This document shows positions 53,243-57,190 of a stretch of DNA of 64,000 nucleotides, in pieces. The DNA lies in the NCBI RefSeq assembly GCF_013410745.1, contig NZ_JACCFY010000001.1, positions 186,001 to 250,000 on the forward strand. The letters are read 5' to 3'. Source of the DNA: Nesterenkonia xinjiangensis (GTDB lineage Bacteria > Actinomycetota > Actinomycetes > Actinomycetales > Micrococcaceae). The translations under genes were made by a program, and so were the position numbers. The notes under the pieces were generated by a model. The model worked only from the letters and a program-made list of their open reading frames with translations, had not been told where the DNA came from and did no database searches. How positions within the stretch are numbered: the first letter of the stretch is position 1; each line of letters opens with the position of its first letter.

Positions 53243-53968
53243 ATGAGTGACGTGTCCCGCCGAACTGACATCGAGCATCTCGCGCTGCTCGCCGCTCTGC
53301 AGCGGGAGTTCCACGCGCATCTGCTCGTCGCCGACTCCGAGGCACCAGTGCCTGCCTGCGGCTGGTGGACCGTCGAGGACCTCACCGAGCACCTCTGTGA
53401 CGTCTACATCTGGGCGGCAGACATGGCCCGGGGCCGGGCCGCGGCTCCTAGGGAGGAGCGCCCCGCAGAACGCCCGGACGGCCTCGCCGCGTACTATCGA
53501 TCCTGCGCCGCCCATCTCCACGAGACCCTCACTCAGCTGGGCCCCGAGGCTCCCGCGCGGATCTTCGGAGGCGACGGGGCGGCGGCGTTCTGGCATCGCC
53601 GCCAGGTCCACGAGACCCTGGTCCACCTCGATGACCTCGCCGCGGCCCTCGACGCCGACCCACCACACGTGGCGGCGGAGGTCTGGGCCGACGGGATCGA
53701 TGAGATCGTCACGGTCCTGTATGCCCATCAGCTGCGATTGGGACGTGCGGAGCCGCCGTCGTCTCCGGTCCTGATCACTGCGACAGACGCCGAGAGCAGC
53801 TGGACCATGCCCGCAGGCACAGAGAACCCGGCCGCGGAGATCCGCGGCCGGGCTCAGGAAATCGATCTTCTGCTGTGGGGGCGCCGTGGCCTCGCGAACT
53901 CATCCCTCGAGGTGCGGGGCGATCGCGTCCCTGTGCGGCAGCTGCTGGATCAGCCGGTCACTCCGTGA
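53243..53968 (+). CDS. Maleylpyruvate isomerase-like (mycothiol-dependent) family protein
   Basis: A 241-residue protein with the N-terminal DinB-type helical bundle and a C-terminal SCP-like domain. GWWTVEDLTEHLCDVYIWA and FWHRRQVHETLVHLDDLAAA carry the His/Glu residues of the metal site. Relatives use mycothiol, the actinobacterial thiol. It overlaps the convergent oxidoreductase gene by 11 bp. Confidence 0.85.
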   Translation: MSDVSRRTDIEHLALLAALQREFHAHLLVADSEAPVPACGWWTVEDLTEHLCDVYIWAADMARGRAAAPREERPAERPDGLAAYYRSCAAHLHETLTQLGPEAPARIFGGDGAAAFWHRRQVHETLVHLDDLAAALDADPPHVAAEVWADGIDEIVTVLYAHQLRLGRAEPPSSPVLITATDAESSWTMPAGTENPAAEIRGRAQEIDLLLWGRRGLANSSLEVRGDRVPVRQLLDQPVTP

Positions 53969-54881
53969 CGTCGATGATGATCTTCCCGGATCCGTCACCG
54001 GACTGGTTGTGCCTCATCGCCTCGGCCGCCTGCTCCAGCGGGAAGTGCCGGTCGATCTCCACGCTCAGAGTGCCGTCTGCGACCTTCGTCAGGAGCTGTC
54101 CCAGCCTCTGCCCGTCGGGGCGCACCCACACCCAGCGACCGTCGTGCTCCTCCACCGCGGGGTCCGCGATCGACACGTGGCGACCGTCATCGGCCAGCAC
54201 AGCGAGAGTCTGCTCGAGGACTCCGCCGGCGAAGTCGGCCACGGCGGTGACCCCTGTGGGCGCCAGGTCGCGGACACGCTCCTCGAGTCCGTCACCATAG
54301 CGGAGCGGCTCCACTCCCAGGGCACGGAGCTTCTCGTGGTTCCGCTCCGAGGCGGTGCCGAGGACCCGTGCACCACCGGCCGCTGCCAACTGGGCCGCGA
54401 CATGACCCACCCCGCCTGAAGCGCCGTGGATCAGCAGCGTGTCGTCTCCGGACAGGTTCAGCATCTCCAGGGAGCGCAGCGCGGTGAGCCCCACCAGCGG
54501 CAGGCCTGCGGCGGCGTCGACGGAGACGCCCTCGGGGACGCGCGCCACGGAGGCGGCCGGCACCGCCACATACTGGGCGTAGGTGCCGCCGTGGACGACG
54601 TCCTTGCGCGCGTAGGACGCCACCCGGTCACCGGGAGAGAACTCCGGGACGTCCGGGCCCACGGCCTCGACCACCCCGGAGACGTCCCAGCCCGGGATCA
54701 CGGGGAACACGGCGTCAAGCATGCCGTCGAGCCCTCCGGCCATGAGTTTCCAGTCCACGGGGTTGACCGCGGCACGCTCCACCGCGATGAGCACCGCGCC
54801 AGGGCCCAGCTTCGGGGTCGGCTGCTCGGTGAGATGCAGAGTGTCAGGGGATCCGTACTCGGAATAGGTCATTGCACGCAT
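53958..54881 (-). CDS. NADP-dependent MDR oxidoreductase (quinone/enoyl reductase type)
   Basis: A 307-residue zinc-free dehydrogenase: VNPVDWKLMAGGLDG and IPGWDVSGVVEAVG are typical of the family, IHGASGGVGHVAAQLA is the NADP loop. It probably reduces quinones or enones. The ATG at 54879-54881 is preferred; an upstream ATG at 54926 would add a non-conserved tail. Confidence 0.87.
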   Translation of the reverse strand: MRAMTYSEYGSPDTLHLTEQPTPKLGPGAVLIAVERAAVNPVDWKLMAGGLDGMLDAVFPVIPGWDVSGVVEAVGPDVPEFSPGDRVASYARKDVVHGGTYAQYVAVPAASVARVPEGVSVDAAAGLPLVGLTALRSLEMLNLSGDDTLLIHGASGGVGHVAAQLAAAGGARVLGTASERNHEKLRALGVEPLRYGDGLEERVRDLAPTGVTAVADFAGGVLEQTLAVLADDGRHVSIADPAVEEHDGRWVWVRPDGQRLGQLLTKVADGTLSVEIDRHFPLEQAAEAMRHNQSGDGSGKIIIDVTE

Positions 54882-54928
54882 GGTGGCGGCAACCGTCACG
54901 GATCCGCACACATTCCCGGTGTTCACTC

Positions 54929-55687
54929 TCAGGAGAGCTGCCGAACGCCGGTTGCGACTCGAGAGAATCCGCAGGCCTTGAACAGAGCACGGTCCTGAGC
55001 GTCAGCGAAGTCGGCGAAGAGCCGGCAGTGTCCGGCCGCCCGCGCCTCCTCGGCGGCCCGCTGCACCAGCGCCTCCCCCAGCTGGTGGTGCTCAGGATCG
55101 AGGAGCAGCTCGATCAGGACGGCATCCCGATCCCCGTCGCCTACCATCCGGACGAACCCCACCAGGCGGCCGGAGATCGTCGCCGCCACCCAGCTCTCCC
55201 GCCCGTCGGCGGTGCGCGGAGACCAGGTCGAGGCGGATCCGTCGGGGTGGACCCGGGCGCGCAGGTCATCGAGCGCCTCCTCATCGAGCTCGCCGGCGAC
55301 CTGCAGCTGCGGCTCCGACGCTGACGCACCGTCCCGCCGTCGACGACGGCGACCCACGCGACGCTCGGACCGGTTCCTGGCGAAGGCACCGCCCAGAGAG
55401 GCGGCGATGGTGACGAACAGCCCCACGGCCAGCATGGCGTAGAGCATGGTGAAGATCTTCGCCAGCGGGCTGCTCGGCGTCAAGTCCCCGTACCCGACGG
55501 TGAGGCCGCTGACCACGGAGAAGTACAGGGCGTCGAGGACGGTCCAGCCCTCAGTGAGCGTGTAGAAGATCGTGGCGCTGAGCACCAGCATCAGCAGGCT
55601 CAACAGCGCCCCGCGGAACACGAGGTCCTGCCACGCCGTCCGGAGAGCAGAGAGGAAACGGGTGAACATCAGCGTCAGACCGAACAT
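54929..55687 (-). CDS. Two-helix K+ channel fused to a GNAT-like domain
   Basis: A 252-residue protein of unusual build. Residues 1-105 form a complete K+ channel pore: TM1 (GALLSLLMLVLSATIFY), pore helix and selectivity filter GLTVGYGDLTP, TM2 (IFTMLYAMLAVGLFVTIAA). After an Arg-rich linker (NRSERRVGRRRRRRDG), residues 127-252 read as a GNAT fold: SWVAATISGRLVGFVRMV, ELLLDPEHHQLGEALVQRAA and DRALFKACGFSRV. The acetyl-CoA loop is off-consensus (HQLGEA), so it may sense acyl-CoA rather than acetylate. The usual regulator at this position in bacterial K+ channels is RCK/TrkA-N. TAGGAT lies 6 bp before the ATG. Confidence 0.85.
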   Translation of the reverse strand: MFGLTLMFTRFLSALRTAWQDLVFRGALLSLLMLVLSATIFYTLTEGWTVLDALYFSVVSGLTVGYGDLTPSSPLAKIFTMLYAMLAVGLFVTIAASLGGAFARNRSERRVGRRRRRRDGASASEPQLQVAGELDEEALDDLRARVHPDGSASTWSPRTADGRESWVAATISGRLVGFVRMVGDGDRDAVLIELLLDPEHHQLGEALVQRAAEEARAAGHCRLFADFADAQDRALFKACGFSRVATGVRQLS

Positions 55688-55693
55688 GACGGC

Positions 55694-55699
55694 ATCCTA
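55694..55699 (-). promoter_or_regulatory. -10 box (leaderless type) of the channel-GNAT gene
   Basis: TAGGAT on the minus strand, 6 bp before the ATG. Confidence 0.5.
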
Positions 55700-55735
55700 C
55701 GCCGACACCGATCACCCCGGACCGACGTTGACGCG

Positions 55736-55741
55736 TATGCT
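55736..55741 (+). promoter_or_regulatory. -10 box (leaderless type) of the aldo/keto reductase gene
   Basis: TATGCT ends 6 bp before the ATG at 55748. Confidence 0.5.
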
Positions 55742-55747
55742 CGGCCC

Positions 55748-56575
55748 ATGGAACACCTGCAGCTGAATTCTGGCACCAGCATCCCGCAGATCGGTTATGG
55801 CACCGGACGATCCTCGGACCCCGCGAGAAACGTCGCCGCTGCCCTCGAGGCGGGCTACCGGCATGTGGACACCGCCCAGATGTACGACAACGAGGCCGGC
55901 GTCGGCGAAGGAGTCCGCGCATCCGGAGTGCCGCGTGACGACGTCTTCATCACCACCAAGCTGGGCAACGGGAATCACGCGCCCGACGCCGTCGACCGCA
56001 CTCTGGACGAGTCGCTGGTGCGCCTCGGCGTCGACGCGGTGGACCTGTTCCTCGTCCACTGGCCCATGCCTGGGCTGGACATCGACTACGTGGACACCTG
56101 GCGAGCCATGATCTCCGTGGCCGAGACCGGGCGGGCTCGAGCGATCGGCGTCTCGAACTTCGAATCCCACCACCTGGAGCGGATCATCGAGGCCACCGGC
56201 GTCTTCCCGGCGGTGAACCAGATCGAGATCCACCCGTACTTCGCCAACAACGAGCTGCGCCGCTGGTGCTGGAACCACGGGCTCGCCGTCGAGGCGTGGA
56301 GCCCGCTGGGCAAGGGCGACGACCTCGACGATCCAGCCGTCCAGGAGCTGGCCACGCGGCTGGGCCGCACCCCGGCCCAGGTGATCCTGCGCTGGCACCT
56401 GCAGCGCGGCGACGTGATCATCCCCAAGACCGATCACCTCGAGCGGATGGCCAGCAACCTGGAGATCCTCGACTGGCAGCTCGATGAGCACGACGCGGCA
56501 GTCCTGGACGCATTGGACCGCGGTGAGGAAGGTCGGCGCACCGCCCATCCGGACCACGCCGTTTCGACACGTTGA
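55748..56575 (+). CDS. Aldo/keto reductase (2,5-diketo-gluconate reductase type)
   Basis: A 275-residue NADPH reductase: GYRHVDTAQMYDNEAGVGEG (Asp, Tyr), VDLFLVHWPMP (His), IGVSNFESHHLERI and VIIPKTDHLERMASNL (the NADPH-phosphate site) are all standard. The carbonyl substrate is unknown. Confidence 0.92.
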   Translation: MEHLQLNSGTSIPQIGYGTGRSSDPARNVAAALEAGYRHVDTAQMYDNEAGVGEGVRASGVPRDDVFITTKLGNGNHAPDAVDRTLDESLVRLGVDAVDLFLVHWPMPGLDIDYVDTWRAMISVAETGRARAIGVSNFESHHLERIIEATGVFPAVNQIEIHPYFANNELRRWCWNHGLAVEAWSPLGKGDDLDDPAVQELATRLGRTPAQVILRWHLQRGDVIIPKTDHLERMASNLEILDWQLDEHDAAVLDALDRGEEGRRTAHPDHAVSTR

Positions 56576-56581
56576 CCGGGG

Positions 56582-57190
56582 TCAGTCCCCGTAGGTGATC
56601 TCCACCCGACGATTCGCCGCGAAGGTGGCGGGATCCTCCTCGTCCTCGGTGACCGCGGGTTCGGTGTCTCCGCGGCCGGCCACGTGGAGCTCAAGGTCCG
56701 GACGCTCCTGTTCGAGAACCTCGGCCACAGCCTCGGCACGGTTCTCCGAGAGCACCTGGTTGTCGAAGTCCTCCCCGGTGGGGACCGAATCGGTGTGCCC
56801 GGTGACCTGCACCTCTGCCCCGTCGGGGATCTCGGCCACCAGCTCCGCGATGCGTGCCCCTGCCCCGTCCGGCAGCTCCCAGCTGTTGATCCGGAAGAGG
56901 ATGTCGGTGGACAGCGAGATCAGGTTCGCCTCCTCATCCTCCGTCCGCGGGTCACCGAGCTGTTCGATGAAGTCCTGAGGATCAAAGCGGTAGATGAACG
57001 GGCCGGCGTCATACGGCACGACGGCGTCGTCCGTCTGCAGGCCCTCGGGACGCTCCGGTGGGGCGTCGAGCCGCTCCTGATCCGGCACCGGAGCGCCGAC
57101 GTGCCCCGGGGAGACCGCCCCCGTCAGGACGACGAGCAGCGCGAGCCCTGCTGCAGCGATCCCAGCCGGGGCGGTGCCGTAGGCGCTCAT
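56582..57190 (-). CDS. Exported OmpA-family peptidoglycan-binding protein (copy 2)
   Basis: A 202-residue protein with an N-terminal hydrophobic segment (signal or anchor; GIAAAGLALLVVLTGAVSPG) and an OmpA-like domain. GHTDSVP, the peptidoglycan motif N-x2-LS-x2-RA-x2-V-x3-L (NQVLSENRAEAVAEVL) and NRRVEI are intact. It differs from copy 1 mostly in the linker. The ATG at 57188-57190 overlaps the lipoprotein stop (ATGA), exactly as in copy 1. Confidence 0.85.
   Translation of the reverse strand: MSAYGTAPAGIAAAGLALLVVLTGAVSPGHVGAPVPDQERLDAPPERPEGLQTDDAVVPYDAGPFIYRFDPQDFIEQLGDPRTEDEEANLISLSTDILFRINSWELPDGAGARIAELVAEIPDGAEVQVTGHTDSVPTGEDFDNQVLSENRAEAVAEVLEQERPDLELHVAGRGDTEPAVTEDEEDPATFAANRRVEITYGD

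Follow-up and report, generated by a model that had tools for sequence, protein, structure and literature searches.

A channel pore and a GNAT-like domain in one reading frame

The window analyzed here is a stretch of 64,000 nucleotides (C1:186001-250000) from the genome of Nesterenkonia xinjiangensis, which is assembled as a single 3.57-Mb contig and is 99.6% complete. On its minus strand lies a gene (55687-54929, ATG at 55687, TGA at 54929-54931) encoding a 252-aa protein in which a two-transmembrane (2TM) K+ channel pore is followed by a GNAT-like domain; reading 54929-55687 on the plus strand runs into a stop. An initial annotation had described a two-helix K+ channel with a TVGYGD filter in a single frame, and the complete open reading frame and its Ion_trans_2 match (E = 5.5e-18) bear this out, with the strand, which that annotation left unstated, being minus. 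The features of the locus are as follows.

54929..55687, minus strand: fusion gene, 2TM K+ channel pore plus GNAT-like domain, 252 aa (ORF and translation, Pfam, whole-length homologues)
55631..55684, minus strand: N-terminal helix, residues 2-19, matching the N-terminal part of NaK/NaKTs (AlphaFold2 secondary structure; NaKTs alignment over residues 1-122)
55553..55624, minus strand: outer transmembrane helix M1, residues 22-45 (AlphaFold2; NaK/NaKTs alignment)
55484..55501, minus strand: selectivity filter TVGYGD, residues 63-68 (T63-V-G-Y-G-D68; sequence, invariant across the four fused proteins compared)
55379..55468, minus strand: inner helix M2, residues 74-103, with the model helix running on to 121 (AlphaFold2)
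55328..55378, minus strand: Arg-rich stretch, residues 104-120 (R104-G120), the counterpart of the basic C-terminal tail in pore-only relatives (alignments; pore-locus tail lengths)
54932..55312, minus strand: GNAT-fold domain, residues 126-252
55070..55096, minus strand: shortened CoA pyrophosphate loop PEHHQLGEA, residues 198-206 (HQLGEA, 201-206; two-residue gap in 5/5 fused copies and 0/36 other GNATs)
54980..54982, minus strand: F236, where the general-acid Tyr usually sits (alignments)
53958..54926, minus strand: downstream same-strand conserved neighbor, quinone-oxidoreductase-like by resemblance, not part of the channel (synteny with genome G001; found in 24/30 genus genomes)
55748..56575, plus strand: divergent conserved neighbor, aldo/keto-reductase-like by resemblance, not part of the channel (synteny)

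A scan of 53900-56700 for promoters and terminators found none.

Domain matches and predicted structure

Pfam searches placed Ion_trans_2 (PF07885) at residues 31-102 (65.1 bits against a cut-off of 22.5) and Acetyltransf_1 at residues 149-241 (E = 5.6e-9, 36.7 bits against a cut-off of 20.7), with Acetyltransf_7 slightly under its cut-off of 27 at 26.1 bits. This gene is the sole Ion_trans_2 match of the genome at E <= 0.01. No RCK (TrkA-N) or cyclic-nucleotide domain was found after the pore, the Pfam families at E <= 10 being two channel and three acetyltransferase models, which agrees with the earlier proposal that a GNAT-like domain occupies the position of an RCK or cyclic-nucleotide module. 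The Arg-rich linker of that proposal is present as the basic stretch R104-G120. A profile search for both domains had been put forward as a check, with absence of GNAT similarity from residues 127-252 as grounds for rejection; both profiles exceed their curated cut-offs and the position of the Acetyltransf_1 match contradicts any such absence.

An AlphaFold2 monomer built from 25 sequences combined a 2TM pore with a GNAT fold (mean pLDDT 83.9), with the TVGYG filter between helices 22-45 and 74-121. M2 was predicted as one helix spanning residues 74-121 and continuing into the basic stretch, and the placement of the two domains relative to each other is poorly defined (pTM 0.51; residues 111-130 with pLDDT of about 65-74). 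When only the 4 fused sequences were supplied the GNAT core still formed, with a mean pLDDT of 61.0 and a poor pore, such that this second run backs the GNAT core alone. Structural alignment with VIA-align covered the GNAT half, and the pore assignment comes from Foldseek and sequence. Compared by itself with the sequences of solved structures, the GNAT part gave weak matches (best E = 0.014). The beta-alpha topology and the profile match expected of the GNAT superfamily are nonetheless both present, and a chance profile match was ruled out by the score over the curated cut-off and the recurrence of the fold in two predictions. As judged from its sequence, the protein is probably a K+-selective channel, and we infer that the modeled monomer would assemble as a tetramer.

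The pore is related to NaKTs and its basic tail is shared by unfused channels

Among solved structures, NaKTs of Tsukamurella paurometabola (PDB 5cbf) comes nearest to the pore, matching residues 1-122 with E = 6.2e-36, and NaK ranks next. The similarity to NaKTs begins at the N-terminal helix and runs as far as the basic tail. NaKTs is a calcium-activated cation channel that has been expressed in E. coli and crystallized, and its description reported no other channel of similar sequence (PMC5052707). It has 123 aa and no further domain, whereas the fusion protein adds a GNAT domain, and its filter is the proline-rich LPMGNGPLSP, in contrast to the canonical TVGYGD found here (PMC5052707). The fusion protein thus has TVGYGD in place of the proline-rich Ca2+-site filter that characterizes the NaKTs subfamily. 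Among 18 unfused pore relatives compared, TIGYGD occurred in 13 and GLPMG in 4, all of the latter from Tsukamurella, so the odd GLPMG filter marks Tsukamurella and not the pore group. The NaKTs-like filters seen in other Tsukamurella loci (L118, L121, L053 and L116) read GLPMGNGALSP, GLPMGGGALSP (two loci) and GLPMGGSSVSP.

Pore-only 2TM channels of actinobacteria, from Phytoactinopolyspora, Myceligenerans, Nocardioides, Streptomyces and Tsukamurella, have a frame without GNAT, and in the 17 nearest unfused loci (L113-L129) the pore is 49-65% identical to that of the fusion. The alignments also revealed an Arg-rich tail in two pore relatives (P0011 and L030), and the linker of the fusion resembles what would once have been the channel's own C-terminal end.

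Fused homologues and selection

A whole-protein search of about 5.8 billion proteins returned 10 matches, with both domains present in the window protein and 3 relatives that are homologous over their whole length at 89% (N. suensis), 85% (Nesterenkonia sp. K-15-9-6) and 77% identity (a third protein). Residues 126-252 as the query recovered only those four fused proteins again from the same collection; these protein searches require shared 5-residue words, and more divergent fusions could escape them. A fifth fused copy, in genome G001, is 84% identical to the window protein and 93% to that of K-15-9-6. Given whole-length homologues at these identities, a fusion by chance or frameshift is unlikely. 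In total, five distinct sequences, four from Nesterenkonia and one from a metagenome, carry the uninterrupted fusion and are 73-93% identical where compared. The initial annotation had suggested looking for the same fusion in related genomes, which yielded these five sequences and 2/30 genomes of the genus, and had named a stop or frameshift between the domains as what would undo it; the five copies contain neither, and their common frame rules out a frameshift or assembly artefact.

Between the window gene and G001, dN/dS was 0.126 for the pore (bootstrap 0.04-0.27) and 0.30 for the GNAT part (bootstrap 0.17-0.49). The latter is about 2.4 times the former, with overlapping bootstrap ranges and a single genome pair behind both, so the GNAT part is constrained but apparently less so than the pore. 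These sequence comparisons indicate that purifying selection is acting on both parts. Two motifs, RLFADFAD and FKxCGF, are conserved in 5/5 fused copies.

The fusion has a narrow distribution

The gene was found in 2/30 Nesterenkonia genomes and was absent from the other 28, so the genus manages without it. In the family sample 1/295 genomes was positive, this being the source genome itself (G001 evidently lies outside that sample), and the order, class and phylum samples added no further fusion; in the family, class and phylum samples, the best 6-9 first-look candidates per genome were scored. A first scan of a contig collection (query P0001) found no fusion though the collection holds the fused locus L112 of Nesterenkonia sp. 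PF2B19, and must therefore have been insensitive. A second scan, which found L112, kept the best 80 of 120 relatives. Among 97 pore loci, comprising these 80 and 17 from the phylum sample, a GNAT domain lay on the pore's frame in 1, that of Nesterenkonia sp. PF2B19. Tails of at most 65 residues were found in 95/97, and the tail of 180 residues in a Pseudomonas locus (L186) had no GNAT similarity. The class sample also contained a frame of 661 codons joining a pore to a longer domain (L048), which resembles a Kch/RCK channel. One paper reports that its Nesterenkonia strains have no kch (PMC13373138).

Among 72,556 plasmid records 11 matched, each over at most 39% of the query, and neither the protein, the genome-sample nor the plasmid searches gave any sign that the fusion is a widespread family. 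Among the papers listed by searches of the open-licence literature, none was seen to describe a K+ channel-GNAT fusion. Within that literature the architecture appears to be undescribed, as the initial annotation had supposed.

The GNAT part lacks two features of catalytic GNATs

To place the fused domain among other GNATs, we aligned the 5 fused copies with their 9 nearest unfused relatives and with 27 other GNAT matches of the source genome (E <= 1e-5), two of which (L097 and L107) share one frame. The nearest relatives came from a search of 394 class genomes with profile A3, whose best GNAT matches were ten proteins (E = 3e-17 to 9e-13); one of them, L045, was omitted for a stop in the matched stretch. 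The remaining nine (L042-L044, L046, L047, L049-L052) are actinobacterial proteins of about 130 aa, 30-35% identical to the fused domain. Unlike it, they have no pore in frame (standalone status being judged from their frames), a full-length P-loop and an FY motif.

The P-loop consensus of GNATs is given as the six residues Q/R-x-x-G-x-G/A (PMC4964394). The CoA pyrophosphate loop was two residues short in 5/5 fused copies and in 0/36 other GNATs (27 + 9), and three further GNATs from other Nesterenkonia likewise have a full-length loop. The fused loops read HQ--LGEA, HQ--LGES, HR--LGET (twice) and RQ--LGES, and while the aligner puts HQ after the gap, all five lack two residues between beta4 and alpha3 whatever the gap placement. 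At the column of the general-acid Tyr, a residue found in 62% of characterized GNATs (PMC4964394), Phe stands in all five fused copies (ALFK in four, AVFK in one), and the FY of the nine nearest relatives is LF or VF. Tyr occupies this column in 15/27 other GNATs of the genome, with Phe in 3 and one ending before the column. In 5/9 nearest relatives the Tyr lies one column earlier, so the comparison at F236 is sensitive to register; both columns are without Tyr in every fused copy.

The fused domain therefore has neither the normal-length P-loop of catalytic GNATs nor the general-acid Tyr, which is common but not universal among them. The sequence comparison marks the GNAT part as degenerate and makes catalysis unlikely. 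The earlier description of HQLGEA as off-consensus was correct but understated, given a loop two residues short relative to 36/36 GNATs and a Tyr missing in 5/5 copies. Altering the P-loop of another GNAT is reported to have abolished its binding of AcCoA, and a human O-GlcNAcase (OGA) domain with an atypical loop has been termed a pseudo-acetyltransferase (PMC3919268). However, working GNATs with atypical P-loops that still bind CoA, such as MtAAC(2')-Ic, are also described (PMC4964394), so the shortened loop is not proof of lost CoA binding.

A proposed regulatory role for the GNAT domain

Bacterial K+ channels serve as models of gating, and their known cytosolic gating modules are of few kinds (RCK and cyclic-nucleotide domains). 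On balance we lean slightly towards a reading in which a NaK/NaKTs-type pore carries a fused actinobacterial GNAT that has turned into a pseudo-enzyme and cytosolic regulatory domain in one Nesterenkonia lineage. An ordinary actinobacterial GNAT would have been joined to the end of the pore's basic C-terminal tail, would afterwards have lost its catalytic equipment, and would now regulate the channel from the cytosol. That catalytic features were lost while purifying selection continued suggests that the domain serves in structure or in sensing. Four subunits would bring four pseudo-GNAT domains beneath the inner mouth, where a change in their packing, through a ligand, a protein partner or dimer exchange, could pull on M2 and change channel opening; such a change would act on the gate because M2 is predicted to be continuous through the basic stretch toward the GNAT domain. 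Regulation of the gate by this domain is what we infer from these features.

The pore family and enzyme fold of TRPM2 are unrelated to those of the fusion protein. By analogy and not by kinship, human TRPM2 nevertheless offers the nearest functional likeness, in that a degenerate C-terminal enzyme domain of a cation channel serves as ligand sensor: its nudix domain NUDT9H has lost enzyme activity and binds ADP-ribose to gate the channel (PMC5671594). If our reading is correct, a GNAT-fold module would be an additional kind of K+ channel gating module, and the protein would join TRPM2 as the second example of a channel sensor that arose through decay of an enzyme. A bolder version, that this is the first known K+ channel gated by a GNAT-fold sensor that responds to acyl-CoA or to some other metabolite resembling CoA, an amine or a nucleotide, and thus a prokaryotic counterpart of the pseudo-enzyme sensor of TRPM2, is tentative and in our view rather doubtful. 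Two other GNAT folds, PanZ/PanM and the human OGA domain, either do something different from acetyl transfer or have a changed P-loop (PMC4410942; PMC3919268). Neither of them is known to be joined to a channel. The role of the domain is directly testable, since the protein is small at 252 aa, NaKTs has been expressed and crystallized (PMC5052707), and the pore-only relatives are natural controls.

The initial annotation favored ligand sensing over catalysis; its doubt about catalysis fits the poor prospects described above, but its link to acyl-CoA level is weakened, since the shortened loop argues equally against CoA binding. Acyl-CoA is thus a possible but not a favored ligand, and we consider it unlikely that the domain binds acetyl-CoA or CoA without turnover and so couples K+ flux to acyl-CoA level. 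Such gating would be compatible with the GNAT fold retained in AlphaFold2 and VIA-align, with a CoA-bound YhhK (PanM/PanZ) at row 13 of the Foldseek results, and with HQLGEA, which can also be set against the P-loop consensus without a gap, the 77% relative having R there (RQLGES). Foldseek rows 1-2 (4crz and 4cry) are presumably PanD-PanZ entries, and PanZ is no special relative here because the top Foldseek E-values lie close together. Precedents exist in PanZ, a GNAT whose regulation of PanD depends on CoA (PMC4410942), and in the atypical-P-loop GNATs that bind CoA (PMC4964394). Against these stand the shortening between beta4 and alpha3 in 5/5 copies, which should displace the pyrophosphate site, and the reported loss of AcCoA binding upon loop change in another GNAT (PMC3919268).

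That the GNAT domain is instead a near-neutral appendage, attached when a pore-only gene lost its stop and tolerated without a gating role, we regard as improbable. It would accord with the 96/97 pore loci that have no GNAT on the pore's frame, with the 123 aa of NaKTs (PMC5052707), and with a dN/dS that is higher in the GNAT part than in the pore and fits weak constraint. However, no stop or frameshift has arisen in 5 copies down to 73-77% identity, the GNAT dN/dS is below 1 with an upper bootstrap bound of 0.49, and RLFADFAD and FKxCGF are retained in all five. Purifying selection on the GNAT part would equally suit a bifunctional channel-enzyme, in which the tethered GNAT still acetylates a membrane-proximal substrate and the channel chiefly anchors it or has a function of its own, as would the score above the Pfam cut-off and the presence of Phe or other residues at the Tyr column in 11/27 other GNATs of the genome. 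We hold this to be very improbable, given a P-loop shortened and a Tyr missing in 5/5 fused copies where the 9 nearest unfused relatives retain both.

Genomic setting and origin of the fusion gene

Both neighbors of the gene are about 88% identical in G001, with the same arrangement around it. The oxidoreductase neighbor was found in 24/30 genus genomes at E <= 1e-60. The channel is present in 2 of these; in 9 the reductase lies divergently 58-630 bases away without the channel, in 5 it is about 1.0-1.3 kb away, and the 1.5-kb flank of the other 8 showed no reductase. Divergent neighbors of these two kinds, oxidoreductase and aldo/keto-reductase, recur in many species of the genus, separated by 58 to 1314 bases (L062-L082). 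Kv-beta proteins are aldo/keto reductases, but a Kv-beta-like partnership of this neighbor with the channel was set aside because 9 genus genomes have the two neighbors together but no channel.

At E < 0.05 the 14 channel-less gaps contained no sequence resembling a pore or a GNAT, the best match being 37 residues in L071 that are 41% identical to the filter-M2 region (E = 0.052), which we took for chance. The simplest history would be gain of the gene in one lineage rather than repeated loss. A separate GNAT gene beside pore-only genes was sought by tblastn with the fused and four other GNATs in 7 loci of 10-16 kb, with none at E <= 1e-3; this search was insensitive, as two GNAT genes are annotated within 5 kb in one of the 7 loci (L053). 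With hmmsearch, GNAT ORFs appeared in 9/96 other pore loci, in 8 cases on the opposite strand. The ninth, in L200, did not match the fused GNAT in blastp at E <= 1. These searches of pore-only loci did not support an adjacent GNAT gene as the state before fusion.

Several of these loci have features of their own. Ectoine synthesis involves ectA and ectB, and the GNAT ORF of L200 is presumably EctA, with EctB adjacent. In this locus (G1313:C32, frames at about 1225-1869 and 2039-2764), a pore-only channel is followed on the same strand by an ectA-like and then an ectB-like gene, a possible osmotic link. L053 (NZ_LR134461.1 83239-93532), from 'plasmid 19' of Tsukamurella tyrosinosolvens, has ispG and an M50 metallopeptidase close to the channel gene and may be part of a chromosome. 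Finally, one GNAT gene is interrupted by an in-frame TAG in two Nesterenkonia genomes, at an identical site in both (L018 and L020, from G013 and G028), and is open in L024 (G007), possibly reflecting a shared pseudogene.
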